Positions 2,220-43,116 of a stretch of DNA of 64,000 nucleotides are shown in pieces. How positions within the stretch are numbered: position 1 is the first letter of the stretch; each line of letters starts with the position of its first letter. The notes below the pieces were generated by a model. It did no database searches. It saw nothing but the letters and a program-made list of their open reading frames with translations, and was not told the DNA's origin. This DNA is from Halanaerobium hydrogeniformans (GTDB taxonomy: Bacteria; Bacillota; Halanaerobiia; Halanaerobiales; Halanaerobiaceae): the NCBI RefSeq assembly GCF_000166415.1, contig NC_014654.1:496001-560000 (forward strand). The letters run 5' to 3'. The position numbers were made by a program, and so were the translations under genes.

Positions 2220-2244
2220 ATAAAAGAATTATATATAAACAATC

Positions 2245-2276
2245 AACCGGGAGTATTATACTTCCGGTTTTTCTTT
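2245..2276 (+). terminator. Intrinsic terminator after porin 1
   Basis: An 11-bp stem (AACCGGGAGTA pairing with TACTTCCGGTT, one G-T pair) with a three-base loop is followed by TTTCTTTT. It closes the monocistronic porin gene. Confidence 0.88.
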
Positions 2277-2358
2277 TGCCTTAAAAACAGGAAAATTGTA
2301 GTTGATATTGAACTATATTAATACAGAAAGATTGATATATTTTACTGGGGGAATCTAG

Positions 2359-3054: not shown

Positions 3055-3079
3055 TCAATCTATTAGGGGGGATTCTTGC

Positions 3080-3451
3080 ATGAGATTTAAATTTGCCACG
3101 ATAGAAGTCAAGGACCTTGAGAAATCTTTTAAGTTTTACACAGATGTATTAGACCTTTCACTTGTGAGAAGATTTAGTCCCAGAGAAGGAGTAGAGATCA
3201 TCTTTTTAGAAGACCGCAATGGTAACCAGCTGGAACTTATTGAAGACCAAAATGTTAGAGACTATATTGAAGAAAGAGCTTCTAAAGTTCAGCTTAGTTA
3301 TGAGGTAGATAGTCTGCAAAAAACGATGCGTTTTTTAGCTTCACAATCGGTAGAAATAGTTGGAGGTCCTGTTGATATTCAAACAGGTAGATTTATTATA
3401 ATCGAAGACCCGGATGGCGTTAGAATAGGACTTTTTGAAGAGAACAAATAG
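3080..3451 (+). CDS. VOC/glyoxalase superfamily protein
   Basis: 123 residues forming one vicinal-oxygen-chelate fold: the first beta-alpha-beta-beta-beta module (FATIEVKDLEKSFKFYTDVL, then NQLELIE) and a second ending in EDPDGVRIGLFE. Family members include lactoylglutathione lyase, methylmalonyl-CoA epimerase, dioxygenases and antibiotic-binding proteins. Possible metal ligands are Glu residues near NQLELIE and the C-terminal GLFEE. The substrate is not predictable. TAGGGGGGATT precedes the ATG, and it is the second gene of a probable two-gene unit with the racemase. A hairpin terminator follows immediately. Confidence 0.8.
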   Translation: MRFKFATIEVKDLEKSFKFYTDVLDLSLVRRFSPREGVEIIFLEDRNGNQLELIEDQNVRDYIEERASKVQLSYEVDSLQKTMRFLASQSVEIVGGPVDIQTGRFIIIEDPDGVRIGLFEENK

Positions 3452-3459
3452 TATTAAGC

Positions 3460-3506
3460 TTAAGGGGCTTCACTTCTATTCTAGCTGTGGAGCCCTTTTA
3501 AGATTT
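3460..3506 (+). terminator. Intrinsic terminator after the racemase-VOC unit
   Basis: AAGGGGCTTCAC (3462-3473) pairs with GTGGAGCCCTTTT (3487-3499) around a 13-base loop; a short T-rich tract follows near 3504. Confidence 0.7.
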
Positions 3507-3526
3507 TGATTTCAGGAGGAAAGTAA

Positions 3527-5193: not shown

Positions 5194-7032
5194 ATGAAGA
5201 AATTAACGCTGATAACCGCTTTATTTTTAATATTTGCTTTAGCTTTACCAGTATCAGCATCTTTTTCTGATGTGCCTGATGGTCACTGGGCATATGATGC
5301 TATCGATTCCCTTGTTGCTGCTGGGGTAGTAGAAGGATATCCAGATGGGGAATACAAAGGCCAGGAAGCCATGACTCGTTACGAAATGGCTGTCATGGTA
5401 AATAGGGCCTTAGATAATATGATGGCTGAGCTGGAAGATAGAGATGATGGTTTAAGCTATCAACAGGCTCAGGAAATTTATGCAATGGTAGAAGCACATA
5501 TGGAAGCCAATCTACCGGAAGAATTTACAGATGAACAGGTAGAAGAAGTAACAGAAATTACCGAGGTTTTAGTTTATGAGCTGAGAAATGAATTAAGGCT
5601 TTTAGGGGTAGATATAGATGCTTTAGTAGAAGATCTTGAGGCTTTAGAAGCTAGAGTAGATGCTATGGATGTTCCTGAAGATAACATAGAATTTGCTGTA
5701 ACAGTAGAAACCATCTTTGAGGTTGCTGACTATCCAGATGAAGATGAAGAAATCGGAGCAGCAATGAAATTATGGGCTGATGATGATGCCTTAGATTTAG
5801 ATCTGCCAACTTATGATGGAGATATAGTTACTCCTGAAGATGGAAACTTTGATCCTACAGCAGATGATTTCGACTGGGGAGACGCAGATGATCTTCCATC
5901 TGAAAAAAGATTCTGGCAGGAAATAGGTTTCGATGTTTATGGTAATTTAGGTAGAGCTGATTTTCATTTAGAATTAGATACAATAGTAAATGTATTTAGC
6001 GAAGAAAAAAGTGCATTTGACTACAGAGAAAATAATCAGGAAGATTTTTTAATGGATACAGCCCTATTAAGCGTTGATTATGAGGGAGAGCTATTTAATA
6101 CCCTACAGGCTGGAGATCTTTTGGATTACAGCATAGCTACCTATTTTGTAGATGAAGAAGATCTACAGGGAGTAGAAGTAACCACAGATTATTATGGTCT
6201 TGATTGGACTTTCTTAACTGCCGGTTTTGGTGATGATGAAGTAGATGATATCTATGGAATCAGTGCAGCTACTGAAGTTGATTTTGCCCTGGTTACAGGT
6301 AGTGTATATCACCTTAGAGGTACAGATGGTAAAACCACTAACTTCTCTTTAGCACTTGAAGAGATAGCTTTAACAGATGCTGTAACTTTAGGTGGAGAGC
6401 TGGTCTTTAATGATTCTGAAGACGAAGATGATATTCTCTTCAATCTAAGCGGAGAATTTGCTGCAAGTGATGAATTAACAGTATTTGCCGGTTTTGAAAC
6501 CGTAGGTGAAGACTTCTACGCTTTTAAAGATGATCTAGCAGGTGCTGAAGAAGGAAATAATGTTGACTATGATAAGTTCAATCTGGGAGCAGAATTTCTT
6601 TTAGATGCAAACAATACTATAACAGCTAATTATAGTCTGGTTCAGCCAGGTGATAATTATACTGTTAATGATGAAGATGAAATGGCTGTAGAACTTAGAT
6701 TGGATAATCTTTATGGTGACTTCACAAACCATGCCTTAGTTGAGTATACTATGGATGATGGTTTTGCAGCAGATAGAGATGTTAGATTTATCGAAGTTGG
6801 TACAGAATATGCCATGGATGAAGTTACAACTCTAGGTGCAAGCTGGGTAAATAAAGATATTGATACCGATACAGGCACTGAGCTTAACTATAATTATCTC
6901 AAAGGTCATCTGAATAGAGAACTTTCAGAAAATACGGTTTGGAATGTAGAAGCTAAGTGGATTGATGGAGAATATGAAGATGAAGATGCAGATTCAAGTT
7001 CACTTACTACATCTCTAGCAGTTAGCTTTTAA
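5194..7032 (+). CDS. SLH-domain outer-membrane porin (OmpM-like), copy 2
   Basis: 612 residues with the same layout as the gene at 357: signal peptide (about 1-23, cleavage after SASA or VSA), one SLH domain (SFSDVPDGHWAYDAI to TRYEMAVMV), a helical linker to about residue 165, then an acidic beta-barrel region ending in Phe. The blocks LPSEKRFWQEIGFDVYGN, FVDEEDLQG, LDNLYGDF and SENTVWNVE are almost identical to copy 1, so the two are recent paralogues. TTGGAGGTT precedes the ATG. It has its own promoter and terminator. The role proposed is general diffusion pore plus outer-membrane tether to the wall. Confidence 0.88.
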   Translation: MKKLTLITALFLIFALALPVSASFSDVPDGHWAYDAIDSLVAAGVVEGYPDGEYKGQEAMTRYEMAVMVNRALDNMMAELEDRDDGLSYQQAQEIYAMVEAHMEANLPEEFTDEQVEEVTEITEVLVYELRNELRLLGVDIDALVEDLEALEARVDAMDVPEDNIEFAVTVETIFEVADYPDEDEEIGAAMKLWADDDALDLDLPTYDGDIVTPEDGNFDPTADDFDWGDADDLPSEKRFWQEIGFDVYGNLGRADFHLELDTIVNVFSEEKSAFDYRENNQEDFLMDTALLSVDYEGELFNTLQAGDLLDYSIATYFVDEEDLQGVEVTTDYYGLDWTFLTAGFGDDEVDDIYGISAATEVDFALVTGSVYHLRGTDGKTTNFSLALEEIALTDAVTLGGELVFNDSEDEDDILFNLSGEFAASDELTVFAGFETVGEDFYAFKDDLAGAEEGNNVDYDKFNLGAEFLLDANNTITANYSLVQPGDNYTVNDEDEMAVELRLDNLYGDFTNHALVEYTMDDGFAADRDVRFIEVGTEYAMDEVTTLGASWVNKDIDTDTGTELNYNYLKGHLNRELSENTVWNVEAKWIDGEYEDEDADSSSLTTSLAVSF

Positions 7033-10194: not shown

Positions 10195-10441
10195 TTTAGC
10201 AGATCACCACCAATGAAAATAAATATTATTAGATAACTTAATTTTTATAATTCTATGAAAGGTGCAATATTCCTTTAATAATTATAAAAATTTTATTTAT
10301 TTGACAAAATAAGACATTTTATATAAAAAAATTTAGTTATGAAAGAGTCTCCTTAAAAAAATAAATAAAGGAATTAATTAAGTTATAGTGAATATAATAA
10401 TATTAATATAAGATATTAAACATTAAAGATAGGTGAATTTT

Positions 10442-11329
10442 ATGCTAAAAAATATTTATTTTTTAAAAAAAGACAACTCTGCTTTCACAATGATTGAACT
10501 TTTAGTAGTTATAGCAGTTTTAGGTATTTTAGCTTCTATTGCTCTGCCAAGGATGTCAGGAGTAATCGAACGGGCAAAATTTGCTTCTGATCAAGCGGCA
10601 GCAAGAAATCTGAATAGTGTAACTTCAGTTTATAGGTCATCTATATCTTCAGATCCATTTAGCGATCAATCGAATACAAATCAATCTCTGCTGCAGATAT
10701 TAGCAGATAATGATTATATTTCAGATGATTTTGAACCTCAAAGTGAAAATATTGAGTTTGCCTGGCTCTTTGCAGAAGAGAGATGGTCTTTGTCATTTGA
10801 AGATAAATTTTATGTTGTTTCTGCAAATGACGGCTTAGAAATTCATAATAATGGAATGTTAGGTGCTTGGAGTGGTAATGATCATATTTACTCTGGGATT
10901 GGGGAAAATATATTTATACCTTTTTCAATAAATGACACTACTTTAGAAAATATTGGGCGTTATGCTTTTTATAATGTCGGTTTAAATAATTTGGAATTTG
11001 AAGAGGGAAGCCAAATAAAAAAGATACACACTGATGCTTTTCATAATAATAATCTTTCAACTATTAATTTACCTGATTCAATACAAGAAATTGATATGAG
11101 ATCTTTTAGAAATAATAATTTAACCGAAATCCATCTACCAGCGAGTTTAAATAAAATTGAACAAGGAGCATTTGAGGGTAATGAACTGAATAAAATAACT
11201 ATAGATTCATCAGAAGTAGATATTGGAGAAGATGCTTTTGGAGCAAATACAGAACAATTCAAAAATGCTTATGCTGATAATGGTGCAGGAACTTACATTT
11301 GGGATGGGGAGAATTGGATAAAACAATAA
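10442..11329 (+). CDS. Type IV pilin-like protein with BspA-like leucine-rich repeats, copy 1
   Basis: About 295 residues. The N-terminus is a class III (prepilin) signal: a short basic leader, then Ala-Phe-Thr-Met-Ile-Glu and a hydrophobic helix (LLVVIAVLGILASIALP), cut by a prepilin peptidase before Phe, with the pilin Glu5 present. The pseudopilin head (about 30-140) leads into repeats of the BspA/LRR_5 type (about 165-275: IGRYAFYNVGLNNL, IHTDAFHNNNLSTI, IDMRSFRNNNLTEI, IEQGAFEGNELNKI). The ATG at 10442 is chosen because AGGTG sits six bases upstream; the in-frame GTG at 10433 overlaps that site. A second gene of the same design follows. Export by a type II/IV pilus machine and a binding role are inferred. 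Confidence 0.82.
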   Translation: MLKNIYFLKKDNSAFTMIELLVVIAVLGILASIALPRMSGVIERAKFASDQAAARNLNSVTSVYRSSISSDPFSDQSNTNQSLLQILADNDYISDDFEPQSENIEFAWLFAEERWSLSFEDKFYVVSANDGLEIHNNGMLGAWSGNDHIYSGIGENIFIPFSINDTTLENIGRYAFYNVGLNNLEFEEGSQIKKIHTDAFHNNNLSTINLPDSIQEIDMRSFRNNNLTEIHLPASLNKIEQGAFEGNELNKITIDSSEVDIGEDAFGANTEQFKNAYADNGAGTYIWDGENWIKQ

Positions 11330-11387
11330 TAGATTCACTACTTGATGCCTTTTAAATTTACTAAGATCACATAGGGACGTGATTCTG

Positions 11388-12212
11388 ATGCGAAAGCTTA
11401 ATAACACAAAAGGATTTACTCTAATAGAATTAATTGTTGTAATAGCTATACTTGGTATACTTGCAGCTATTGCAGTACCTAGGTTTTCTGGTGTTATTAA
11501 GCGTGCCCACATTTCTGCTGATCAAACTAAGGTAAGGGCATTGAACAGTGTGACTTCGGTAGCTAGAATGGCACTGCTTTCAGAGGACCCCTTTATTGAT
11601 AATAATGAAACAGATCAGCAATTAATTGCTTTTTTACAGGGGAGGGGCTACTTAGATGATGGGCCGATTGAGCCTCAGACTAGAGATGCAGAATTTAAAT
11701 GGTCCTTTGATGATGAGAAGTGGTATCTTATGATAGGGGATTCTTTAACACATTATTTGCTCACTACAGATGACTATGAATCTTCAGAGGATAATGTTAC
11801 TACTCTATTTTCATTAAATAATATAGAGCATATCGGAAAGTATATTCAGATCCCAGAAGGAATAAAAGCCATTCACGGTGGAAGTGATGACGCAGCTTTT
11901 TGGCAAAAAGGCCTTGAATCTGTTATTCTACCTGATTCATTGGAAGAAATTCGCGCCCATACATTTCAGGGAAACAACTTAAAAGAAATTTTGATACCTA
12001 ATAATGTGCAAAACATTGGAAACAATTCCTTTTATAATAATCCGATAACAAAAGTTACTATAAGTGGTGATCAGGTGAATATAGAAGACCGAGCTTTTGG
12101 AACAGGGTGGTCAGAGGCAAAAGAACAAACAGATGCTTTTAGAGAGGCTTATTCAGAAGGTGGTGCTGGTACTTATGAATGGACCGGTGATAAGTGGATT
12201 AAGACTAGGTAA
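11388..12212 (+). CDS. Type IV pilin-like protein with BspA-like leucine-rich repeats, copy 2
   Basis: 274 residues. Leader MRKLNNTKG is followed by FTLIELIVVIAILGILAAIAVP, a textbook type III signal with cleavage between Gly and Phe and Glu5 present. The region to about residue 140 parallels copy 1 (ALNSVTSV; a DxxFxW/EKWYL-like block), then come fewer BspA-like repeats (VILPDSLEEIRAHTFQGNNLKEI, split over about 180-235) and the same C-terminal signature GAGTYEWTGDKWIK. The start is taken at 11388, ten bases after AGGGA. It lies 58 bases after copy 1, so the pair is probably one transcript ending at the hairpin near 12245. No assembly ATPase or prepilin peptidase gene is in the window. Confidence 0.82.
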   Translation: MRKLNNTKGFTLIELIVVIAILGILAAIAVPRFSGVIKRAHISADQTKVRALNSVTSVARMALLSEDPFIDNNETDQQLIAFLQGRGYLDDGPIEPQTRDAEFKWSFDDEKWYLMIGDSLTHYLLTTDDYESSEDNVTTLFSLNNIEHIGKYIQIPEGIKAIHGGSDDAAFWQKGLESVILPDSLEEIRAHTFQGNNLKEILIPNNVQNIGNNSFYNNPITKVTISGDQVNIEDRAFGTGWSEAKEQTDAFREAYSEGGAGTYEWTGDKWIKTR

Positions 12213-13174: not shown

Positions 13175-15112
13175 GTGCTTAAAAAATTAACTTTAGCAGT
13201 AGCTATTGTTTTGATTTTAGCTTTAACCATGCCGGCTTTAAGTCTTTCTTTAACTGATGTGCCTGCAGATCACTGGGCATATTCAGCAATTGAAGAACTG
13301 ATTGAGTCAGGGATAGTAGAAGGATATCCTGATGGAGAGTATAAGGGCCAGCGGACAATGAACCGCTATGAGATGGCTATTATGGTCAATAGAGCTTTAG
13401 ATAAGATAGCTGCTGAACAGGAAGAACTTGCTGAAGGTTTGAAAATGGGACAGGCAGAAGATACAGCTGCCATAGTTCAATCTTTATTGGAAAAGAATTT
13501 AGGCCAGGGACTTACATATGAACAGGCTTCTGAAGTTGCAGATCTGGTAGAAGCGCTGACTGCTGAGTTTGAAGAAGAACTTGCAGTTATAGGAGCGGAT
13601 TTGGATCTTATCTCTGAGGATTTAGCAGCCCTGCAGAGGGAAGTAAATGCTTTAGATCTACCAGAGGATAACTTGGAATTTTCTCTGGATATAGCTACAT
13701 ATTTTGAAGCTGCAGCTTATGATGATGATGAATTAGAGAGAATATTGGCTGCTTTTATCTGGGCTGACGAAGATGTTTTAGATATCGATGATATTAATGA
13801 CATTGATGAATTACCATCTAAAAAGAGATTCTGGCAGGAGCTGGATTTTGTAATCAATGCTGAAATTGGTGATGCAGCCTTTAAACTGGAAATGGATACT
13901 TTAACAAATGTATTTACTCAAGAAAAAAGCGCATTTGATTATCAGGAAGAAGATCAGCCTGACTTTAAAATGGATCAAGCTCTTTTAACTTTTGATTACA
14001 GAGAAGTACAGTTAAGAATGGGAGATTTTGAAGACTATAATATAGCTCGTTATTTTGTAGATGAAGAAGATCTTCAGGGTGTAGAATTAAGCACCAACCA
14101 GCTTGATATGGATCTCAAATTTCTGGTAGCAGGTTATGGTGATGACTCTGACTTTGATGTCTTTGCTATTGAAGGTAGAAGTGAAACTGATTATGGAGTG
14201 CTAACAACTAAAATTAATCAGGTTCGTAGAGATGCTGATACCTGGAATATAGAATTAATAGATTTCTATTTTGATACTATATTTGTTGATTTTGTGGTAC
14301 CTGCTGAAAGACTGACTAATGTTTCTTTAGCCATCGATGATTATTACTTTAACGATAATCTGCTCTTTGGTGGAGAATATGTTTATAATGAATATAAATA
14401 TGGTGATGAAAGTCAGGATGACTATTTACTTAACTTTTATGCAGATCTTTTTGCTTCTGATCAGTTAAAATTAAGTGCAGTATATGAAAGTGTTGGTGAT
14501 GAGTTTTTTGCCTATCAGCATGATTTAGAAGCTGCCTTAGCTTATGATCTTTATAAAATTGGAGCTGCCTATGATTTCAATGAAAATAGCTCTGTAATAG
14601 GTAGCTATACTCTGGTTAAACCGGGTAGCATCTGGGATGATTGGTTTGGTGATGATTTAACTGCTGAAGATAAAGATAAATATGAGATAGTATTTGAAAA
14701 TGATATGAATGGATTCAATAATTCAGCTAAAGTGGAAGTTGTTAAAAATGAGTTGTTTTTTGACAATTTTGACGAGAGAACAGTTACCTTAAAAACTGCT
14801 TATGACTGGAATGAAAAAACTACCTTGGGAGCTAAGTTTGTAAATAAAAACATTTCCTGGGCTGGAGAAGTTAATGATGATGGGACTCTCAGAGAAATTG
14901 ACCTGGATTTGGACTATAAATACTTAGAGGCATTTATGGAAAAGGCTTTAAGAGAGAACCTGAGCTGGAATATTACCGGTCGCTATATTATGGGTGACGT
15001 AGAATATACTGATTCTGTAGGCTTTGAGTTCATTGATGGTCAGACATACAATAGTTTTGATCTTGATACAAAATCTTCGATGATCAAAACAGGCTTAATA
15101 ATCAGCTTCTAG
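13175..15112 (+). CDS. SLH-domain outer-membrane porin (OmpM-like), copy 3
   Basis: 645 residues with signal peptide (about 1-24), a single SLH domain (LTDVPADHWAYSAIEEL to NRYEMAIMV), a helical linker and a long beta-rich part ending in Phe. It shares LPSKKRFWQE, FVDEEDLQG and VFTQEKSAFDYQE with the copies at 357 and 5194 but is more diverged and has extra loops. The start is GTG at 13175; an ATG two bases earlier is out of frame and stops after five codons, and AAGGGGG fits the GTG. It is transcribed alone, between its own promoter and terminator. Selectivity may differ from copies 1 and 2. Confidence 0.88.
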   Translation: MLKKLTLAVAIVLILALTMPALSLSLTDVPADHWAYSAIEELIESGIVEGYPDGEYKGQRTMNRYEMAIMVNRALDKIAAEQEELAEGLKMGQAEDTAAIVQSLLEKNLGQGLTYEQASEVADLVEALTAEFEEELAVIGADLDLISEDLAALQREVNALDLPEDNLEFSLDIATYFEAAAYDDDELERILAAFIWADEDVLDIDDINDIDELPSKKRFWQELDFVINAEIGDAAFKLEMDTLTNVFTQEKSAFDYQEEDQPDFKMDQALLTFDYREVQLRMGDFEDYNIARYFVDEEDLQGVELSTNQLDMDLKFLVAGYGDDSDFDVFAIEGRSETDYGVLTTKINQVRRDADTWNIELIDFYFDTIFVDFVVPAERLTNVSLAIDDYYFNDNLLFGGEYVYNEYKYGDESQDDYLLNFYADLFASDQLKLSAVYESVGDEFFAYQHDLEAALAYDLYKIGAAYDFNENSSVIGSYTLVKPGSIWDDWFGDDLTAEDKDKYEIVFENDMNGFNNSAKVEVVKNELFFDNFDERTVTLKTAYDWNEKTTLGAKFVNKNISWAGEVNDDGTLREIDLDLDYKYLEAFMEKALRENLSWNITGRYIMGDVEYTDSVGFEFIDGQTYNSFDLDTKSSMIKTGLIISF

Positions 15113-15704: not shown

Positions 15705-16958
15705 TTAGGATACCCTTAATCTTGAAGGATTGTCCACAAATCCATTATCTCTCGCCTCTTTGATGGGTCTGAGAATACATTTATCCTTATGATATTTACG
15801 AAGTATATTAAAGCTACCATTCTGATCAGCATTAATTAATAGGCCCTCGTTAGTTTTAAAGAGACCTCTAGTAATTCTTCTGGATTTATCATAGTTACTT
15901 TTATTTATTTTTTCCAGATCTACTGAACTACATCCAGAAGTATAGCTTTCATCAATTTCAACAACTTTGATACCTTTTAGTTTAGCTTTGTATTCAATTA
16001 ATTTTTTTAATCTCTGGATCGGTATTTGGACAAAAGATTTAAGCTTGCTGCATTGTTTAATATTTTTTATATCTCCGATTACAATAGTTTCTACTTGATT
16101 TTCAATTGCTAAATCAACTATTTTGCAACTAGCTTTATGGAGATAATTGCTAATATAATTTCTTCTCTTTAATCTCAGATATTTTATTCGTTTAGTATCT
16201 CTAATTTTACTGGTAGCTAACTGCCTCATTCTAATGCTTTGTAGTCTGGCAATTTCTTTATTAAAATAAGAATTTTTGGATTTAATAGTTTTACCATTGA
16301 TAATATAACACTCAGAATTGTTTTTAAATGTTAAAGTAGCCAAATTATCAAGACCTAGATCTACTGCCATTATGTTAGGGTTATTATTTTCTTTTATTTC
16401 CTCGGTCTTATAGATGATTAGTAGATACCATCTTTTAGAAATACGGTCCTGCTTAATCTTTATCTGCTGGACAGCATCTAAATCTATAATGCTTTGAACT
16501 GCTTCAGGCAGCTCAAAATTAAGGCTTTTCACATTATATTTAGATTGTATCTTTTTAGATAAGGATAAGAGTAATTTGTTATCTTTAATTCTAACAGCTA
16601 AATTGGTAAAAATTATTTCACAGGGATTACTGTTCATATGTTTAAAATTAGGTGACCCTGGCTGCCCCTTATATTTTTGAGGATTCTTTTTATAATCTTT
16701 GAGAGAATTAAAAAAACTTTTCCAGTCCTGAGCTAACTGCTTTAATGCCTGCTGTCTGTTATGGGAGTGAAGGTAGTCATTATGCCAGTTATTTTTATAT
16801 CTAGTTTCTAATTCAGTATAGACAGCTTTTACATCTTTATTATTTTTAATCTGATAATTGACTATATTATATAATTTAGAGCAATGCCAGGCTAATTCAT
16901 TAATTATTACTAATTGCTTATGGCTTAATTTAGGGTTGAATTTAAATGATAATCGCAT
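15705..16958 (-). CDS. tnpB: TnpB RNA-guided nuclease of an IS200/IS605-type element
   Basis: 417 residues, full length for the family. The N-terminal helical/WED-like part (about 1-190) is followed by a RuvC nuclease fold: RuvC-I Asp200 in AVDLGLDN and RuvC-III Asp378 in INADQNGSFNI. At the RuvC-II position the sequence is IVIGDIKNI, with Gly where most TnpB have the catalytic Glu; this variant is common in one TnpB branch and Glu337 in IDESYTS may substitute. The zinc-finger cysteines between RuvC-II and III are mostly missing (one Cys in SGCSSVD). TnpB proteins cut DNA at target sites using an RNA from the element end, favouring element retention. GGAGGTG precedes the ATG. Activity is not proven by sequence. 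Confidence 0.88.
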   Translation of the reverse strand: MRLSFKFNPKLSHKQLVIINELAWHCSKLYNIVNYQIKNNKDVKAVYTELETRYKNNWHNDYLHSHNRQQALKQLAQDWKSFFNSLKDYKKNPQKYKGQPGSPNFKHMNSNPCEIIFTNLAVRIKDNKLLLSLSKKIQSKYNVKSLNFELPEAVQSIIDLDAVQQIKIKQDRISKRWYLLIIYKTEEIKENNNPNIMAVDLGLDNLATLTFKNNSECYIINGKTIKSKNSYFNKEIARLQSIRMRQLATSKIRDTKRIKYLRLKRRNYISNYLHKASCKIVDLAIENQVETIVIGDIKNIKQCSKLKSFVQIPIQRLKKLIEYKAKLKGIKVVEIDESYTSGCSSVDLEKINKSNYDKSRRITRGLFKTNEGLLINADQNGSFNILRKYHKDKCILRPIKEARDNGFVDNPSRLRVS

Positions 16959-18571: not shown

Positions 18572-20236
18572 GTGTTGAAAATCAATAATTTAAATTGGCA
18601 AAAATTAAAATACATTGTTCTGACCTGCTGTTTTCTTTTGCTTTTCAGTGGAGCTGTTTCTGCCCGATATACTCTGGAGGCAGATGAAATAATATTTAGG
18701 GAAGCTGATTCGCTGATCCTTTTTGAGGGTAATGCTTCTTTTAGAGCTGAAGAATATACCATTCAGGCTGATAAGCTGCTTTTAGATACAGAGGCAAGGC
18801 TGCTTAAAGGTGAGTCGAATATCATAATCTCCTCTGATAAAGAAGAACTTTATGGGGAAAGTTTAGAGTATAATTATGAAGAACAGAGCGGAAGTCTTTA
18901 CAGGGCAGAAGGAAGTTTAGAAGAAATCTATTTTTCCGGGGCCAGACTTGAGATAATAGCAGCCTCTCCCTTTGAAGGTAAGCTGACAGAAGCAGAGTTT
19001 ACCCCCTGTAAACGTGAAGATCCCCATTATCATTTTAAGGCCAGGGAGATCAGGATCAATCCCGATAATACCCTTTCAATTTATCATATAGTACCTCATG
19101 TGGCTGGAATACCGGTCTTTTATCTCCCTTACTATTCAGTTACCTATGATCCTGAGGGAGAAGCAGGAGAAACTTTAAGTGATACCATTCCCTTTCCTCA
19201 ATTTGGTTATGAACAGGGAACAGGAATAACTGTAGAGATGTCTTATCCCTATCAGATAAGTGACAGCAACAGTGGTAAGATCTATTATTACCGGGCTGGA
19301 GATGAAGAAGAAAGAAGGGAATTCAGCAATGTGCACCGCTTAACAGATAATTTAAATTTGATCAACCGTTATAACTATCTTTATGAATATGATAGTGATG
19401 CAGATGTGATCGATGAAGAGGAAGAAGAATATACTTTATCACTTGAGTACAGCATTCCGGGTTTTTCTGTAGAAGGTGGTTATTTAAGAAATCTACTGGT
19501 TGAAGATAACCGGGACCGTTACTATATTACTTCAAGTTATTTACATAAAAGTGGGGTCAATACATATTTTCGTCAGGAATATGACAGTGAAGAATTGATC
19601 AAAGAAAACTATCGTTTAAGCTATAATCGGGGACCGGTTCCCTGGAATCTGCGTTATGTAGATGGAGAAAGCTATAATTATTATCCCTACCTTCATCTCA
19701 ATTTACCGCGAGTTTTAAATTTCAATCCCTATCTGGCCTTTGGTCGGGTGGAAAATGCCGGAATTGAATTAAATAAATATAGAGCCGGCTTAAACTTCAG
19801 CTATAACTTTGATCTGACAGATAGTGTGCGCTATCACTTCCGTCACAATTACCGCCTTGATCACTATAAGAGTGGTTTTGATCAAAATTATCATTACTTT
19901 AACCTGAGAACCGGTTTGAGCTATCGCGGTAATCCAGCTGAGCGTTTGAGTGTGAACAGCTCATTGTTTTATGAAGAAAAACTAAGTTCAGGCAGTTCAC
20001 CTTTGCCTGATGATCGGGAAGATGATGAAAGGCTGCTTAAACCTGCTTTGAGTTTCGAACTAGCCGGAGAGCTGCCGGAATCAGCCTGGGCCATCGATGC
20101 TGACGGAAGCTATAATCTGGATACTGAAGAGTGGGATGAGATAAACTTAAGGATCCGTAAAAAAGAGGATTGTTTTGACTTTTTCATCGGATATGAATTT
20201 ATCGATGAAGCCCTGATCTTTGGTTTAGAACTTTAA
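18572..20236 (+). CDS. LptD/OstA-like outer-membrane LPS assembly protein
   Basis: 554 residues. A signal peptide (about 1-32, ending VSA) precedes an OstA/LptA-type beta-jellyroll (about 33-150: TLEADEIIF, GNASFRAEEYTIQADKLLL, GESLEYNYEEQSGSL). The LptD junction motif follows (CKREDPHYHFKAREIRI, then AGIPVFYLPYYSV), then strands rich in Tyr typical of the C-terminal barrel. E. coli LptD is near 780 residues, so this is a short form, and only one Cys of the usual disulphide pairs is obvious. It would insert LPS into the outer leaflet. GTG at 18572 is used (GGAG eight bases upstream). A second LptD-like domain occurs in the fusion at 39256; which one is the main LPS exporter is unclear. Confidence 0.78.
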   Translation: MLKINNLNWQKLKYIVLTCCFLLLFSGAVSARYTLEADEIIFREADSLILFEGNASFRAEEYTIQADKLLLDTEARLLKGESNIIISSDKEELYGESLEYNYEEQSGSLYRAEGSLEEIYFSGARLEIIAASPFEGKLTEAEFTPCKREDPHYHFKAREIRINPDNTLSIYHIVPHVAGIPVFYLPYYSVTYDPEGEAGETLSDTIPFPQFGYEQGTGITVEMSYPYQISDSNSGKIYYYRAGDEEERREFSNVHRLTDNLNLINRYNYLYEYDSDADVIDEEEEEYTLSLEYSIPGFSVEGGYLRNLLVEDNRDRYYITSSYLHKSGVNTYFRQEYDSEELIKENYRLSYNRGPVPWNLRYVDGESYNYYPYLHLNLPRVLNFNPYLAFGRVENAGIELNKYRAGLNFSYNFDLTDSVRYHFRHNYRLDHYKSGFDQNYHYFNLRTGLSYRGNPAERLSVNSSLFYEEKLSSGSSPLPDDREDDERLLKPALSFELAGELPESAWAIDADGSYNLDTEEWDEINLRIRKKEDCFDFFIGYEFIDEALIFGLEL

Positions 20237-34484: not shown

Positions 34485-34614
34485 CAAAAAATTATTTAGT
34501 TAGATGAAAGCCTTTTTTACTTCTAACATAAGTTTAAAAAAATTCAAAAAAGAGGGTGATCGAAAAAACTGCAAGTAGTTTGACGTAAGTTAAATCAAAT
34601 TGGGAGGAAATAGT

Positions 34615-36915
34615 ATGAATTTTAAGAAAATAACAATAATTACAATAACGATCTTATTTATTATGTTTACAATTATGACAGCAGTTTCTGCAGCAGATGT
34701 TCAGCGTTCTCCAAGGTTTAACTTAAGAGGAATTACAGGAGATGACTTTATCGGTCAGGCAGGGATTCTTTATCCTTTTAGAAACAAAGAAGATTCGCTT
34801 TGGTATACTGATTTTAGGTATAGAATAAGTGATGATGATGCTGATGAGTGGAATTTAGGGATCGGCTATAGATATAAGTTGGATAATGTTGATGATCATA
34901 TTGCAGGTGTATATCTTTTCAGAGATAAAAGAGAGGAATATGATTATGATTGGGGTATGTGGACAATTGGTGGAGAGATTTTAACTGATCAGTGGGATTT
35001 AAGGCTCAACGCCTATATCTCAGATGATGATGTTCTTTCAGCTCCTGAACTTGATGAAGTAGTAGTCAAAGACAGAAGACTGTTATATCAACAGGGAGCC
35101 TATGCGAGTATGCATGGCTTAGATTTTGAAGTGGGAAAAAGATTTACTGATACAGAAGGTATTTTTAATGATGTAGGTATTTATGCAAAGGCTTTTAGAT
35201 TTTTTGAAAGCAGTACAGAAACTATGACAGGAAAACAACTCCGAGTAGATAAACAGTTTGGTGATCGAGATAAAACCACCTGGAAGCTCGGTTTGCAGTG
35301 GCGCGATGATAACATTAGAGGTAGTGATACAGAAGCAACCTTTGCTGTTTCAATCCCATTTGGTGGTAGTTCTGATCTAGAAGAAAGAGCAGGCCAGAAC
35401 GAAGGGTACAACAGTGAAGATATTTTAGAAGCAAGGATGACAGAACTACCAGAAAGAGACCTTGATATAATAGTTGGAGAATCAGATGCACTTCAGTCAA
35501 ATAATGATGAAGAAAATACTGCCTTTGATTTTTCAGGTGGAGTAAGACTGGGAACAGTTTGGTATGTTACTGCTGATGGTGATAGTGAAGGTGATGGTTC
35601 AAGAGAAGATCCGATCGGTATTGCTAATATAAGTGGAACACAATTGGCAGTTGCTGAATCCAGTAATTCCCCTGGAGAAAATGATGTGATTATTTTACTT
35701 GGTGATGATGGCTCTATGGAATTAAATGATGCTACTATAAATCTTCAGTCTGGACAAAAACTTCTCTCACCTGGAGGCTTTCTTACTGTAGCAGCAGATG
35801 CTGAAGGCAGCAGGAAAACCCAGTTTAGACCAGAGGGTGAAAGGGCAAAGCTGGAAAATTTAAGTATTCGGTCTGAAGAAGTGGAATCTCAGAGGGTCTC
35901 TGGAAATTTAATTGTTTTAGCTGATAATACTACAGTTTCTGGATTGGAAATTAATGTTCCAGGATATACTGGATCTATTATAGGTGGCTCAGGAATAAGT
36001 GGAGAAATAAATGTCACCAATAATATTATATCTGGTAGTTATAGCAGTGAATCAATTTTTGAAGAAAATGAAAGTGTTGTATTTAAAGATTATAATGCTA
36101 TTTCAATTTTACTGCAGCAGGACAAAAATGCTGATATAAATATCGCTGGAAATGAGATTTCTAATTTTTCAAAAGGCATTGAAGTTAATTCGCCAGAAAT
36201 TCAAGAAAGAGGAGTTAATACTAATCAAATAGATATTAATATTTCTGATAATAAATTAAAGGATATTTTTGCTGTTAACTTTATTAAAGGCGATAATTAT
36301 ATTCTTAATGAATTCAATGCAAATGCAATAGGAATAGCTGTAGATATAAGTAGTAATAATTCAAATGTCAATATTTCTGATAATGAATTAAAGGGGATAA
36401 TTGCAGCGAACCTTGCTCCTAATATTAATGAAAATGGTATTCTTGTTATTGCAGAAGTAAATGCAGACTCAAATGCAGTTGCAAAAGGTATAGATTTAGA
36501 TGTTAGCAGTGATAATTCAACTATAAATATTGCTAATAATGAATTAGAGAATATATTTGCTGCTAACTTAATAGAAGGTGATATTAATGCTGATGTAAAA
36601 TTCAATGCAGTTGCAATAGGTATTGTAGATATAAACAGTGAAAATTCAACTGTAAATATTACCGATAATAAATTAGAGAATATATTTGCTGCTAACTTAA
36701 TAGAAGGAGATATTAATGCTCCAACAGACTTAATTGCAGTCGCAATAGGTATTATAGATATAAAAAGTGACAATTCAAATGTAAATATTACTGATAATGA
36801 ATTAAAAGAAATCATAGCTATTAATGCAATTGAAGGTGATAAAAACAATGATACTTCTAAAAAGGATTTTGTAGCAGATATGACATCATCTATTCCAAAC
36901 ATATTTGGCAATTAA
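34615..36915 (+). CDS. Inverse-autotransporter-like barrel with right-handed beta-helix repeats (prematurely stopped)
   Basis: 766 residues to the first stop. A signal peptide (about 1-28, ending VSA) is followed by a barrel like the inverse autotransporter (intimin/invasin) beta-domain (about 30-255: LWYTDFRYRI, WNLGIGYRYKLDN, YASMHGLDFEVGKRF). A linker and a pectate-lyase-like beta-helix (about 315-766) follow, beginning TVWYVTADGDSEGDGSREDPIGI and ending with at least four repeats of about 43 residues built on NVNITDNELKxI and VAIGIxDIxSxNS. Two repeats (36541 and 36670) are nearly identical over 50 bases. GGGAGGA precedes the ATG at 34615. The stop at 36913-36915 is in frame with a further 52 codons of the same protein type, so the gene is probably truncated. 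A surface adhesin role is inferred. Confidence 0.75.
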   Translation: MNFKKITIITITILFIMFTIMTAVSAADVQRSPRFNLRGITGDDFIGQAGILYPFRNKEDSLWYTDFRYRISDDDADEWNLGIGYRYKLDNVDDHIAGVYLFRDKREEYDYDWGMWTIGGEILTDQWDLRLNAYISDDDVLSAPELDEVVVKDRRLLYQQGAYASMHGLDFEVGKRFTDTEGIFNDVGIYAKAFRFFESSTETMTGKQLRVDKQFGDRDKTTWKLGLQWRDDNIRGSDTEATFAVSIPFGGSSDLEERAGQNEGYNSEDILEARMTELPERDLDIIVGESDALQSNNDEENTAFDFSGGVRLGTVWYVTADGDSEGDGSREDPIGIANISGTQLAVAESSNSPGENDVIILLGDDGSMELNDATINLQSGQKLLSPGGFLTVAADAEGSRKTQFRPEGERAKLENLSIRSEEVESQRVSGNLIVLADNTTVSGLEINVPGYTGSIIGGSGISGEINVTNNIISGSYSSESIFEENESVVFKDYNAISILLQQDKNADINIAGNEISNFSKGIEVNSPEIQERGVNTNQIDINISDNKLKDIFAVNFIKGDNYILNEFNANAIGIAVDISSNNSNVNISDNELKGIIAANLAPNINENGILVIAEVNADSNAVAKGIDLDVSSDNSTINIANNELENIFAANLIEGDINADVKFNAVAIGIVDINSENSTVNITDNKLENIFAANLIEGDINAPTDLIAVAIGIIDIKSDNSNVNITDNELKEIIAINAIEGDKNNDTSKKDFVADMTSSIPNIFGN
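36541..36720 (+). repeat. Near-identical 129-bp coding repeats in the beta-helix gene
   Basis: The segment beginning at 36541 (AATTAGAGAATATATTTGCT) recurs at 36670 with only one or two changes over about 50 bases. The 129-base spacing equals 43 codons, so repeat number can change by slippage or recombination without shifting the frame. Confidence 0.7.
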
Positions 36916-37364: not shown

Positions 37365-39224
37365 ATGAAGCTGAAATCCATTCATTCAAAATACATATTA
37401 TTATTCTTTCTCATCTTAGCAGCACTTTTATTAATCAGTGGTTGTGATAGGGGTTCAGGTTCTAGCTCCATTTCCGAAACTGCTGTTGTTGTATCATCTG
37501 ATATAGAATCAGTACAGAGCTTTTATGCTCCACTGGGCTTAAGTGCTGCAGAGATTATTGAAAATTATCTACCTAAAAAGGCAGAGATAACTTTAAGTGA
37601 TGACAGTACTCAAACTGTTGAACTGCACTGGGAGGCTCCTGAGAACTATGATAGTCAGACAGAAGGAGCCTATTTTTTTAATGGTTATTATTATTTACCC
37701 GATGATAGTATTAAAGAAATTACTGCTGAGGTGATTTTAAAAGAAGATATTGCTTCTGTTTCAGGCCGACTGAGCTTTGACTTTGCCTTTGCTTATTCTA
37801 CTTCAGCTGCTAGCTTTAGTACTTCTACTACTTCTCTCAATAGTGATTCATTGCTCAGCAGCAATGAAGAGGAGTATATCATTGCCTTCAAATCTGGAAC
37901 TAAGCGTGAAGAAAGAGAAAAAATCATCAGGTCTCAAGGGGCAGAACTAATAAAAGAGCTGCCTTCATTAAATGCTGCGGTAGTAAAATTCCCTCCTTTT
38001 GCTGTGAATGCAGAGATGAGTCTCGCAGCTGACAGCAGTGTAAGCTATATTGAGCCTAACTATCAGGTACATATTTTAAGTTATGAAGAACCAAATGATC
38101 CCCGGTTTGCTCAGCAGTGGAATTTAGATATGATAGATCTGCCTTATGCCTGGTCATCTCAAAAGGGCAAGAGCAATATTAGAGTGGCTGTAATAGATAC
38201 CGGAATTGAGCTTGAACACGAGGATTTGGCTGCCAGAATAGATAGAGAATATGCCTATAATTTTATTAGTCAAAATTCTAATGTTAGTGATGGTCATGGT
38301 CACGGCACCCATGTTAGTGGTACCATTGGGGCTTTAACAGATAATTCTTTAGGTGTTGCCGGGGTTAGCTGGGCGGGAGAGATACTTCCTTTAAAAGCAT
38401 TAAATGACAGAGGTTCTGGTAATGTTAGTGATCTTGCAGCTGCCATTTTATATGCGGCAGGACTTGATGATAGAGCTGGCAATATGGAGCCGGTTGATAT
38501 TATTAATCTTTCTCTGGGAACTAGTAGTGACTCAAGTACCTTAAGAAATGCAATTAATGATGCTGCTGCAGAAGGTGTTATCTTGGTAGCTGCTGCCGGG
38601 AATAATCAGGGTAGGATTAATTATCCAGCTGCTTATGAAAATGTCATTGCTGTGGGAGCAGCAGATCAAACTGGGGAGTTGGCATATTATTCAAGTTATG
38701 GCCCGGAACTGGACTTTATTGCTCCAGGAGGTAATGACAGCAATTTTGGGATATTGAGTACATATAAAAATAATAGTTATCAAGAATCATCGGGTACTTC
38801 GATGGCAGCTCCTCATATTTCTGGACTGATAGCTCTACTGCTATCTGATAATAATTCAGCTTCTGAAGTCAAAGAGATTTTAGAACAGGCCAGTATTCAT
38901 CTCGGTTTTGAAGAGGAGAGCGATAAAATTGGCTATGGTTTGGTTAATGCCAATTTTGCACTTAATAGGATTGATAAAATAAAAATTATTGTTGGTGAGC
39001 GCAGTGGAGATAGTATTGAAGCTGCAGCAGAAACCGAGATATCCATAAAGGGTGGAGATTATTTTATTGGTGATATACCTATAGGTGAGTATTCCCTATT
39101 TGCCTGGATAGATATCAGAGATAATGGTCTCATTGAAGCAGGAGATTATCTATTGGAAATATCAGAACTTGATTTCAGCCAGGAAATTAACATTGAGCAG
39201 GATCTAAGACTGGTTTTTGATTAA
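37365..39224 (+). CDS. Subtilisin-like (S8) serine protease lipoprotein
   Basis: 619 residues. A lipoprotein signal ends in LISGC (Cys about 27). A poorly conserved N-terminal domain (about 45-155) and an inhibitor-I9-like propeptide (about 170-235: YIIAFKSGTKREEREKII) precede the subtilisin domain (about 245-520) with its triad: Asp in VAVIDTGIE (about 278), His in GHGTHVSGTIG (about 312) and Ser in SGTSMAAPHISG (about 477). A C-terminal beta-sandwich-like tail (about 535-619) remains unassigned. It should act outside the cytoplasmic membrane on envelope or secreted proteins. AAAGGAG precedes the ATG. The LptF-LptD gene follows after 31 bases, so it probably heads this operon. Confidence 0.9.
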   Translation: MKLKSIHSKYILLFFLILAALLLISGCDRGSGSSSISETAVVVSSDIESVQSFYAPLGLSAAEIIENYLPKKAEITLSDDSTQTVELHWEAPENYDSQTEGAYFFNGYYYLPDDSIKEITAEVILKEDIASVSGRLSFDFAFAYSTSAASFSTSTTSLNSDSLLSSNEEEYIIAFKSGTKREEREKIIRSQGAELIKELPSLNAAVVKFPPFAVNAEMSLAADSSVSYIEPNYQVHILSYEEPNDPRFAQQWNLDMIDLPYAWSSQKGKSNIRVAVIDTGIELEHEDLAARIDREYAYNFISQNSNVSDGHGHGTHVSGTIGALTDNSLGVAGVSWAGEILPLKALNDRGSGNVSDLAAAILYAAGLDDRAGNMEPVDIINLSLGTSSDSSTLRNAINDAAAEGVILVAAAGNNQGRINYPAAYENVIAVGAADQTGELAYYSSYGPELDFIAPGGNDSNFGILSTYKNNSYQESSGTSMAAPHISGLIALLLSDNNSASEVKEILEQASIHLGFEEESDKIGYGLVNANFALNRIDKIKIIVGERSGDSIEAAAETEISIKGGDYFIGDIPIGEYSLFAWIDIRDNGLIEAGDYLLEISELDFSQEINIEQDLRLVFD

Positions 39225-39255: not shown

Positions 39256-42200
39256 ATGGACGTTAAATTAATGGATAAATACATCTTAAAAGAAGTAAGC
39301 TATCCTTTTTTGCTGGGAGTTTTTATCATAACCATTATCTTAGTTGGCAGCTATTTTTTTCATCTGGCTGATTTAATCATAGTGAAAAATGTGCCCTTTT
39401 CCCTTGTGTTCAGACTGCTTTTATACAGGCTGCCGGGGGTGATGGTAGAAACCTTTCCCATCGCTGTTCTCTTTGCAACTATGACTGCTATTAATCGCTT
39501 AAATAGAGAAAATGAAATAACAGCCCTGAGGATGGGTGGGGTCAGTATTTTTCGTTTGGTGCTTCCCCTTTTTATACTTGGACTTCTAATAAGTTCATTC
39601 ACCTTTTTGCTTAATGAGAACATAGTGCCCTGGACCAACCACCAGGCTCAGAATATTATCAGACAGACAATTCTGAAAGATGCGATGCCTGATCCGGAAT
39701 CAGAGGTCTTTTTTCAGGGGCCTCGAGGCAGGCTTTTTTATGTGAGCAGCTACAATCAAAGCAGTGGAGAATTAAAAAATATAGTTATCTATCAGCTGGC
39801 ATCTGAAGCTGAGTTTCCGGAGGTGATAACTGCTGTTGATGGTTTGGTAGAGGATAATGCCTGGCTGCTTAACACGGGAATAATCCACCAGTATAATCAG
39901 GGTGGAGAAATAATTTTAGAAAGCAAATTTAATCAGATGGAAATAGAGCTGACTGATCAGATGCGGGAGGTTATGGGGACCCAAAAGAGTACGGCCGAGA
40001 TGAGTCGTGGAGAACTGGGTAGGAGGATTGAGCTTTTTAGAAGAAGTGGGATTGGAGTTAACTCCTTACTGGTCGATTATCATCTTAAACTGGCAGAACC
40101 ACTGGCAGCTCTACTGTTTATTTTAATCAGTCTTCCGCTGAGTTTAAGTTCTAAAGAAAGCAGTACCTGGAATTTTATTTTAACTATTATAATAGTCTTT
40201 TTATATTATGTTGTGCTTTCATTTAGCCGTTCATTTGGGCGAAATGAGGTTTTGTCACCACTGCTTGCTGCCTGGCTGCCAAATCTAATCTTTCTTTTCC
40301 TGGCTTTAATCTTAATGTTATGGCGTGATTTCTGGCAGAGAATATTAAATAAAAGTCTGGCTGTGTTTGGGATTACTGCTGTGGTAGCTTTTCTAATCCT
40401 TTTGCCTGGTAGTGTTAGGGCTGAAGAGCTGTTTTTAAGTGGAGAAAGTTTAAGTTATGATCAGGCTAATAATCTGCTGGAGATCAGCACAAATATCAGT
40501 GGTAGGTACGGGAAATATCATATTCGTTCAGACAGAATTGAGATTCAGCTCAAAGATGGAGAGAGGCAATTATTAGATCAGATCGCAAAGGCGGAACTGG
40601 AACCGGGGATTATTTCTGGCTGTGATTTTGATCAACCACATTATTTTTTTGATGCAAAGCGGGTGATAATTAAGCCCGGTGATTATATTAAATTATATGG
40701 GGTCAGCTTTAAAGAATTAAATGGGAGGCTGCCCCTTTTTTACTGGCCCTATTTATATATTCCTCTGGATAGAGAACAGCAAAACTTTTTTCCAGCGGTG
40801 GGATATCATCAAAGACGGGGCTGGTTTGTTAAAACTAAATATTTTTATAATACCCGCTTTAATCTGCCTGGCAACCTCTATTTAGATCGTTACAGTATTT
40901 CTGGTTATGGTGGTGGTATCAAACAGTATGTTATTTATGAAGCCGATCAGCAGGCTTACCTCTATTACTATACTCAGGAAAACAGGACAGATCTCAGCGG
41001 GCTTTTTAACTGGGAAGCCGAATATAATCATCTCTATCAAAGTGATAACTGGGATGCAGAATTTAATTATCTTTATCAGGATTATGATGAAAAAACAGAA
41101 ATAGAAGCAGAGCTTGATTTAAGACGTAGAAAAGATAGAAGCTACAGCAGGATTGAGCTTGATTATGATAAAATAGATTATTTTGAGGCTGATTTTCGTG
41201 ATTCAGAAGAATACGGGCTTGATTTCTATCAGCGGGATGTTATTTTGGGAGGCTTAAATTATATTATTGATTATCAGCTTGACTTTGATAAAGACCCGGA
41301 ACTCGGACTATCCAGAGAGGAGAATCGAAGGCTTGATCTTGGCTATAGGTTTGAGAGCGGCTGGAATCTGGGTCTGGAATATTATGATGGAGAAAAAGAA
41401 AGTCCTGAGCAGCCATTTTTGAGCCGCTGGGGAGGAGAAGTTTCAGCAGAGAAACTTTTTGGTGATTTTAGGCTCGATATTTTAGTGGAAAGGTATGCTC
41501 CTTCTTTTGCTGAAGAAGATGAGGATGAGGTTCGTTTTTCTCGTCTGCCTGAAATAGAGCTCAGCTATAATCCCCGGGGTAGCTTTGATTACCTTTTAGC
41601 CTATGGTAATTATTATGAAGATATCAGTGATACTGAAGCTCAGCGTTTTAAGGCTCAGGGCCGTTATAGGAACACCCTTAATGTTTTTTCTAATACATAT
41701 TTTCGGCAAAATCATCTTTTAGCAGCCAATACATATCTAGTAGAGGGTTTTGATGGCTATAAAAATCAGATCTACAGTGAGAATAATCTGCGTCTGGTCA
41801 ATAATCTGACGGATAAGTTGCGGTTGACCAATGTTTATCAATATGATCAGCTCTGGTATGAAAGCCCTTTTCGTTTTGACAGTAAAGAAGAAAAAGACTT
41901 ACTGCAAAGTAGTTTGCGCTATAGTCTTCGTGATAACTATGATTTTAGATTTTCTTCTGGCTATGATTTTTTAACAGAATTATATTCACCGCTTGAAGCC
42001 AGACTGGAATACTATCCGGTTAAGAATTGGCAGCTTAATCTTGCCACAAGTTATGACTTGAATGAAAAGCTATATGATGATAATTTAATACTAAGAAGTA
42101 TTTATCAGTCAAAACGTTTTGAACATAAATTAGGAATGCGTTATGATCTAAATAATTCAGAGTTAAAAAGACTTGACAACAGGCTGGTCTTTGAAATAAG

Positions 42201-42447
42201 TGGTGATTATGGCTGGTATATTGAGGCAAATCTTAGCCTTGATTATGATTATGAAGAGTGGATTAGGGAGGGGAATATTCAGCTCAAAAAGAATTTTCAC
42301 TGTCGTGAACTTGCTTTCAGTTATGATTATGTTAGAGAGGAGTTTACCCTACAGTATTCGATAAACCTTTTCCCTTCTCAACCAATTGGTATTACAAAAA
42401 GTGATGATGATATGATTTTTGATCTCGGTATAGAAGAACTTTTATAA
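39256..42447 (+). CDS. Fusion of an LptF/LptG-type permease with an LptD/OstA-type outer-membrane protein
   Basis: 1063 residues from ATG 39256 (AGGGG seven bases upstream). Residues about 1-360 are an LptF/LptG (YjgP/YjgQ) permease: three N-terminal membrane helices, the coupling segment RLNRENEITALRMGG, a periplasmic jellyroll and three C-terminal helices. Residues about 370-393 form a seventh hydrophobic stretch ending PGSVRA/EE, which looks like a signal peptide. After it come an OstA-like segment (ESLSYDQANNLLEIS), an LptD junction (GCDFDQPHYFFDAKRVIIKP, PLFYWPYLYIP) and a Tyr-rich barrel-like region to the end. LptF sits in the inner membrane and LptD in the outer, so one chain would need cleavage at the internal site or an unusual span. 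The frame is continuous, with no internal ribosome site seen. An LptA-like gene and lnt follow. Confidence 0.85.
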   Translation: MDVKLMDKYILKEVSYPFLLGVFIITIILVGSYFFHLADLIIVKNVPFSLVFRLLLYRLPGVMVETFPIAVLFATMTAINRLNRENEITALRMGGVSIFRLVLPLFILGLLISSFTFLLNENIVPWTNHQAQNIIRQTILKDAMPDPESEVFFQGPRGRLFYVSSYNQSSGELKNIVIYQLASEAEFPEVITAVDGLVEDNAWLLNTGIIHQYNQGGEIILESKFNQMEIELTDQMREVMGTQKSTAEMSRGELGRRIELFRRSGIGVNSLLVDYHLKLAEPLAALLFILISLPLSLSSKESSTWNFILTIIIVFLYYVVLSFSRSFGRNEVLSPLLAAWLPNLIFLFLALILMLWRDFWQRILNKSLAVFGITAVVAFLILLPGSVRAEELFLSGESLSYDQANNLLEISTNISGRYGKYHIRSDRIEIQLKDGERQLLDQIAKAELEPGIISGCDFDQPHYFFDAKRVIIKPGDYIKLYGVSFKELNGRLPLFYWPYLYIPLDREQQNFFPAVGYHQRRGWFVKTKYFYNTRFNLPGNLYLDRYSISGYGGGIKQYVIYEADQQAYLYYYTQENRTDLSGLFNWEAEYNHLYQSDNWDAEFNYLYQDYDEKTEIEAELDLRRRKDRSYSRIELDYDKIDYFEADFRDSEEYGLDFYQRDVILGGLNYIIDYQLDFDKDPELGLSREENRRLDLGYRFESGWNLGLEYYDGEKESPEQPFLSRWGGEVSAEKLFGDFRLDILVERYAPSFAEEDEDEVRFSRLPEIELSYNPRGSFDYLLAYGNYYEDISDTEAQRFKAQGRYRNTLNVFSNTYFRQNHLLAANTYLVEGFDGYKNQIYSENNLRLVNNLTDKLRLTNVYQYDQLWYESPFRFDSKEEKDLLQSSLRYSLRDNYDFRFSSGYDFLTELYSPLEARLEYYPVKNWQLNLATSYDLNEKLYDDNLILRSIYQSKRFEHKLGMRYDLNNSELKRLDNRLVFEISGDYGWYIEANLSLDYDYEEWIREGNIQLKKNFHCRELAFSYDYVREEFTLQYSINLFPSQPIGITKSDDDMIFDLGIEELL

Positions 42448-42468: not shown

Positions 42469-43116
42469 TTGCATCAAAGCAAAAGGGTTTTATATATTTT
42501 AATTATTCTAGTTATTTTTTCACTTTCAATTGGGGCTGAAGAAGTGGTTGAGCCTAGAGAAAGTCAGAGTGTGTATATCAATGCAGAAAGTCTGAGCTAT
42601 CAAGAAGAAAAGACCATTTTAAGCGGTGGAGTAAGAATCAGAAAAGCTGACACCCTGATAACAGCCCTTACTGGAGATCTTTTTCGTTCAGAACAGCGGA
42701 TTTTTTTAGAAGATGATATCAGGGCAGAATATCCAGATGGTATTGTAACAGCGAGTTTTTTAAATGCATTCTTAAATGAAGAAGAATATATATTCGAAGA
42801 AACAGTCCTTTTAAATTATCGGCTATCTGCAGAAAAAGATATTTTAGTCTTAACAAGTCAGTATCTCAAACTATTTGGGAGTGATAATTCTTTTACAGCA
42901 GAAAAAGATGTTGAGATAGATTATGAGGGCCAGAATTTTAGGGGAGATAGGGCAGATTATGATGGTCAGACAGAGATCCTTTTGTTAAGCGGTAATGTAG
43001 AAATTGAAGAAGATGGTGACTGGATAAAAAGTGATCGGGCCAGCTTTAATTTAGCAGAAGGAGAAGAAGGTTATACTGCTGAAGGTAATGTGGAATTGAT
43101 GATCAGGATCGATTAA
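42469..43116 (+). CDS. LptA/OstA-like periplasmic LPS transport protein
   Basis: 215 residues. A signal or membrane-anchor helix (about 5-24) is followed by an OstA beta-jellyroll that repeats twice: SVYINAESLSYQEEKTILSGGVRI-type strands (about 35-110) and FRGDRADYDGQTEILLLSGNV (about 155-215). LptA bridges the periplasm between LptC/F/G and LptD. Since the N-terminal helix may stay uncleaved, an LptC-LptA type role is possible. The TTG start has AGGAGGTG seven bases upstream and sits 21 bases after the LptF-LptD fusion gene. Confidence 0.78.
   Translation: MHQSKRVLYILIILVIFSLSIGAEEVVEPRESQSVYINAESLSYQEEKTILSGGVRIRKADTLITALTGDLFRSEQRIFLEDDIRAEYPDGIVTASFLNAFLNEEEYIFEETVLLNYRLSAEKDILVLTSQYLKLFGSDNSFTAEKDVEIDYEGQNFRGDRADYDGQTEILLLSGNVEIEEDGDWIKSDRASFNLAEGEEGYTAEGNVELMIRID

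Follow-up and report, generated by a model that had tools for sequence, protein, structure and literature searches.

An LptF-type permease and an LptD-like protein in one reading frame, joined by a signal-peptide-like segment, in Halanaerobium hydrogeniformans

The window analyzed here is a 64,000-nucleotide stretch of the Halanaerobium hydrogeniformans genome (contig NC_014654.1, positions 496,001 to 560,000, forward strand). Its most unusual feature is lptF-lptD1, a single open frame in which a permease of the lipopolysaccharide (LPS) export family is followed by an internal signal-peptide-like segment and an LptD-like part (Table 1). Automatic annotation of this gene recognizes the permease only. 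The adjoining downstream gene, encoding an LptA/LptC-like periplasmic protein, follows the fusion in every locus of the order Halanaerobiales that is long enough to show it. Upstream lies a gene for a secreted S8 subtilase. It is a conserved neighbor, found next to most fused loci and close to some that are unfused, in either orientation relative to the locus. In addition, the window encodes a second, stand-alone LptD-like protein, LptD2, together with an inverse-autotransporter-like protein, a transposase, two repeat proteins with a pilin-like N-terminus, and three SLH-domain proteins; at least one further SLH-domain, OmpM-type porin-like protein is encoded just upstream of the window.

Table 1. 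Features of the window, numbered from its first nucleotide.
Feature	Position	Strand	Evidence or remark
lptF-lptD1 fused gene	39256..42447	+	Open frame, 1063 codons, from ATG 39256 or the alternative start ATG 39250 up to the stop at 42445-42447
LptF/LptG permease part, residues 8-355	39277..40320	+	PF03739, E 2.1e-92; F-type branch of the LptF/G tree
Internal signal-peptide-like segment, residues 354-389	40315..40422	+	MLWRDFWQRILNK / SLAVFGITAVVAFLILL / PGSVRA
LptD1 part, residues 390-1063	40423..42444	+	PDB profile match 8h1r, Foldseek, AF2 model
Cys456 codon, SGCD..PHY motif	40621..40623	+	Aligns with a conserved cysteine of LptD 8h1r
Cys1016 codon, FHCREL motif	42301..42303	+	Candidate disulfide partner of Cys456
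LptA/LptC-like periplasmic protein with signal peptide, next gene	42469..43116	+	PF03968, E 1.2e-8; PF06835, E 3.7e-6
Secreted S8 subtilase, lipoprotein-like signal	37365..39224	+	PF00082, E 4e-57
LptD2, stand-alone LptD-like protein with signal peptide, the genome's second	18572..20236	+	LptD1 profile, E 7.5e-15, profile positions 53-153
Inverse-autotransporter beta domain, then a long run of NISDN/NITDN-type repeats	34600..36915	+	PF11924, E 5.6e-9
IS605 OrfB transposase, TnpB type	15705..16958	-	PF01385 and PF07282
Three SLH-domain porin-like proteins, OmpM type	357..2219, 5194..7032, 13175..15112	+
Two adjoining genes, type IV pilin-like N-terminus and C-terminal leucine-rich BspA-like repeats	10433..12212	+	Read by eye

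The permease part consists of six helices and a periplasmic beta domain. Its Pfam match spans profile positions 1 to 352 of 353 and, at 310 bits, passes the gathering cut-off of 27.9, which bears out an earlier sequence-only reading of residues ~1 to 360 as a complete LptF/LptG permease. The full-length family match, the six helices, and the beta domain are shared with the LptF/LptG permeases of the LPS exporter LptB2FG. The fused protein differs from these in the in-frame internal signal segment and LptD that follow, and in falling under both NCBIfam equivalog cut-offs: the LptF and LptG models score it about equally, at 182 and 177 bits against cut-offs of 240 and 230. The label LptF is taken from the tree of LptF/G sequences, not from these models. 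In the LptF family the C-terminus lies in the cytoplasm, and LptF and LptD are normally located in different membranes and supplied separately.

No Pfam or NCBIfam LptD match was obtained for residues 390 to 1063, and the Pfam LptD family PF04453 has no match in the fused protein or anywhere in the genome. A search of solved structures with a profile of 24 relatives of this part finds LptD 8h1r (E 2.4e-5), and its other matches, up to an E value of 1, are LptA or LptD. An AlphaFold2 model computed with 24 sequences (pLDDT 76, pTM 0.58) shows a short N-terminal jellyroll followed by a large beta barrel; the model as a whole begins at the equivalent of about residue 115 of Escherichia coli LptD. 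When this model was queried with Foldseek, the 37 best matches were all LptD (E 1.5e-17 to 7.5e-6); VIA-align placed LptD among the top matches at Z 13 to 14, tied with other large barrels and not separated from them. Residues 390 to 1063 are LptD-like as judged by distant profile and fold only, in agreement with the initial assignment of residues ~395 to 1063 to OstA/LptD. The PHYxFxA and FYWPY motifs named in that assignment are present and conserved in relatives, and its barrel-like region holds at the level of the fold only.

The mature LptD1 part contains just two cysteines, one (C456) in the N-terminal and one (C1016) in the C-terminal region. The former is kept in all 29 fusions examined, and the latter in 28 of the 29, the exception being locus L076. 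In E. coli LptD, the interdomain disulfides are formed between cysteines in the N-terminal domain and others at the C-terminal end. LptD1 has in common with LptD (OstA/Imp), the outer-membrane LPS translocon, the profile and Foldseek matches, the succession of jellyroll and barrel, and a pair of N- and C-terminal cysteines. It differs in that it has no Pfam match and a shorter N-terminal jellyroll, is encoded behind a permease, and has no identified LptE.

Among 38 Halanaerobiales genomes, 19 carry the fusion (counting that of the window) as frames of about 1040 to 1138 residues; one more genome (G032) has a fusion cut by a contig end. The same stop-free frame in the 18 other genomes confirms that the frame runs uninterrupted over the joint and rules out a sequencing error hiding a stop near 40400, as well as a chance frame. 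Named carriers include Halanaerobium saccharolyticum, H. kushneri, Fuchsiella alkaliacetigena, and Candidatus Frackibacter. Within the genus, 5 of 12 genomes have the fusion and 7 have neither LptF nor LptD1; it is absent from many close relatives. Some members of the order keep the two genes separate: in unfused Halobacteroidaceae metagenome-assembled genomes, the lptF stop is followed by 12 nt with AGGAGG, the lptD start, and a signal peptide (for example, VLRKVLPCIILILIFSFSTHA/ATR), and in two genomes (G001 and G024) a free-standing LptD1 gene lies at another place and likewise encodes a signal peptide. A survey of 398 sampled genomes of the phylum turned up fused frames in other classes as well, in families f71, f46, and f80, which look like an independent set; elsewhere lptF and lptD are separate neighbors. 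One locus (L129 in G213, 1582-4906) has two adjacent LptF-type genes and then an LptD frame split into two open frames, which may be a pseudogene or an assembly error.

When LptF domains are placed in a tree, the fusions form two groups. The pattern needs four changes, which we tentatively read as two fusions and two later separations; the well-supported branches force only two changes.

Past the sixth helix, the fusions carry a positive loop, a hydrophobic core (TM7), and a short stretch ending in small-x-Ala. This segment is homologous to the N-terminal signal peptides of unfused LptD1. In the window, the joint reads MLWRDFWQRILNKSLAVFGITAVVAFLILLPGSVRA/EE, with a predicted signal peptidase I site at A389/E390 (window 40422/40423), close to residue ~393, where the sequence-only reading had ended a signal-peptide-like stretch. 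The loop or n-region has a net charge of +1 to +7 in 28 of 28 fusions, and (V/A/G/S)xA was read by eye at the joint in 19 of 20 Halanaerobiia fusions. By a rule-based count, the (-3,-1) motif occurs at 27 of 28 TM7 exits, compared with 0/27, 8/29, and 12/29 at the periplasmic exits of helices 1, 3, and 5. Shuffling the same residues yields the motif in 21.9 of 28, modestly below the observed count, and this count alone is weak, since small residues abound here and the fusions are related to one another. One fusion (L036/L077) is without a clean cleavage site in the stretch scanned. The signal core stays hydrophobic, but its pairwise identity is only 20%, whereas the LptF helices reach ~65% and the first LptD segment 63%. 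It appears to evolve as signal peptides do, which is a stronger argument than the motif count.

We consider it probable that lptF-lptD1 is a natural fusion of adjacent lptF and lptD genes, inherited across the Halanaerobiia and cleaved internally. A single conserved frame holds both domains, and unfused relatives have a real signal peptide at the same place. From this we infer the cleavage, localization, disulfide, and stoichiometry of the two products. The six LptF helices would insert in the inner membrane and leave their C-terminus in the cytoplasm, and the former LptD signal peptide (residues ~354 to 389) would serve as an internal signal that carries the remaining chain across the membrane. 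Signal peptidase I, for which the genome has one gene, would cut at A389/E390, and the freed 674-residue LptD would fold into the outer membrane, its two domains linked by a C456-C1016 disulfide. A single gene would in this way supply the permease and the outer-membrane translocon at 1:1, and the LptA-like protein from the adjoining gene would work with both. There is precedent in the FbcH cytochrome b-c1 polyprotein of Bradyrhizobium, in which a polytopic inner-membrane protein is fused to one with its own signal peptide and the chain is cut at that internal signal. FbcH differs in belonging to a respiratory complex and in that both its products are kept at the inner membrane.

Of the two fates proposed from the sequence alone, a cut into two proteins or a covalent trans-envelope link, the first is the better supported and the second disfavored. 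A chain that stays whole would be a covalent bridge between the inner-membrane permease and the outer-membrane barrel, as proposed for the elongated MlaD of Veillonella parvula, where an inner-membrane part and an outer-membrane barrel likewise share one frame in a diderm Firmicute (PMC10665443). That protein is proposed to stay one chain, has no described internal signal peptidase site, and spans the distance with a helix of ~150 residues between its membrane parts (PMC10665443), whereas in a full-chain model of LptF-LptD1 the first LptD strand begins only about two residues after the signal site. In this model, which is of low confidence (pLDDT 65), the helix runs to residue 381 and a loop, itself modeled with low confidence, leads to the first LptD strand at 392, leaving no stretch able to cross the periplasm. 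The short jellyroll, the poor conservation of TM7, and the ordinary signal peptide of unfused relatives also argue against an intact bridge, which we regard as unlikely. Cleavage is probably the likeliest outcome, well ahead of a bridge, because in an intact chain the LptD jellyroll would be kept at the inner membrane for lack of a spacer. That the joint is cut by a protease other than signal peptidase I, such as the secreted subtilase whose gene adjoins most fused loci, is decidedly improbable: the joint carries signal-peptidase features, and the subtilase is also found near unfused lptF/lptD (L084 and L099) and is therefore not tied to the fusion. The chance that LptD is also made separately from a start codon within the end of lptF is slighter again. 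Residue 354 is a methionine that could open a good signal peptide, but in 27 of 28 fusions no internal start is preceded by a Shine-Dalgarno match of at least 5, and in three fusions the 35 codons ahead of the core contain no ATG, GTG, or TTG.

The genome encodes further Lpt components. A second, stand-alone permease of the G type is located ~7 kb upstream of the window (G000:C1:488720-489817), in a lipid A cluster with lpxC and an ABC ATPase that adjoins this lptG and is called LptB type by position. Both LpxC and LpxB, for lipid A synthesis, are present. LptD2 has no Pfam match, and phmmer finds no solved relative of it; the LptD1 profile and motifs suggest that it is LptD-like. By profile, LptD2 occurs in nearly every genome of the order, in several of them near the lipid A cluster. 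Seven Halanaerobium genomes have LptG and LptD2 without LptF/LptD1.

To relate permease type to lipid A, 80 genomes of the phylum were scored with a G-type profile, F and G being sorted by score. Both types were found in 51 genomes, only G in 13, and only F in 16. LpxC is present in all 13 G-only genomes and missing in 14 of the 16 F-only genomes, the exceptions belonging to family f101. Altogether, 63 of 64 genomes with the G type have LpxC, versus 2 of 16 without it (Fisher p 1e-12, not to be taken at face value since the genomes are related). A perfect LptG-LpxC rule fails for f101, which has LpxC with the LptF type only, and for G193 (85% complete), in which both types and no LpxC were found. 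In some families of the phylum whose genomes have no LpxC, no Lpt permease or LptD other than LptF/LptD1 was found, and no full LpxB match was obtained in the fusion-only families f46, f71, and f80. In four genomes without LpxC (G150, G184, G283, and G115), the fused gene is followed a few kb later by a gene for a ~420-residue protein that has weak, partial similarity to LpxB and is a candidate enzyme for the exported lipid. Family f64 (G137, G171, G099, G201, and G274) has a full-length LpxB-like gene near lptF-lptD, and no LpxC was found there, which may indicate a variant pathway of lipid A.

Because each type occurs alone and most F-only genomes have no LpxC, LptF/LptD1 and LptG/LptD2 can each stand alone, the former without need of lipid A, and the fused line may not be dedicated to LPS. 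Two arrangements come into consideration for the window genome. The LptF of the fusion could pair with LptG in one LptB2FG LPS exporter, not forming an LptB2F2 line of its own for another lipid. This matches the E. coli precedent, the lipid A synthesis of this genome, and the co-occurrence of both types in 51 of the 80 genomes, and we put it at slightly short of an even chance. Against it stand the seven Halanaerobium genomes with LptG and LptD2 only and the 16 genomes with LptF/LptD1 alone, 14 of them without LpxC. In the other arrangement, LptF-LptD1 would constitute a full export line of its own, made as a signal-peptidase-cleaved polyprotein and not dedicated to LPS, beside an LptG/LptD2 line for LPS; this is a possible reading that we hold tentatively.

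A 2016 survey reported Halanaerobiales and Negativicutes with a single LptF/G and no clear LptD (PMC5007114). The second LptF/G and the two LptD-like genes found here fill this gap. The parts belong to known families, and their fusion with a retained internal signal appears undescribed: no LptF-LptD fusion was found in the literature searched, a 2020 survey of diderm Firmicutes being outside that search. If the fused pair forms a separate line, LptF/LptD1 in families lacking LpxC would carry a different outer-membrane glycolipid. The tie of LptG to LpxC, which LptF/LptD1 do not share, makes the lipids carried by the Lpt machines of non-proteobacterial diderms a testable question. One chain yielding both LptF and LptD would fix their ratio and would offer a simple natural experiment on Lpt assembly.
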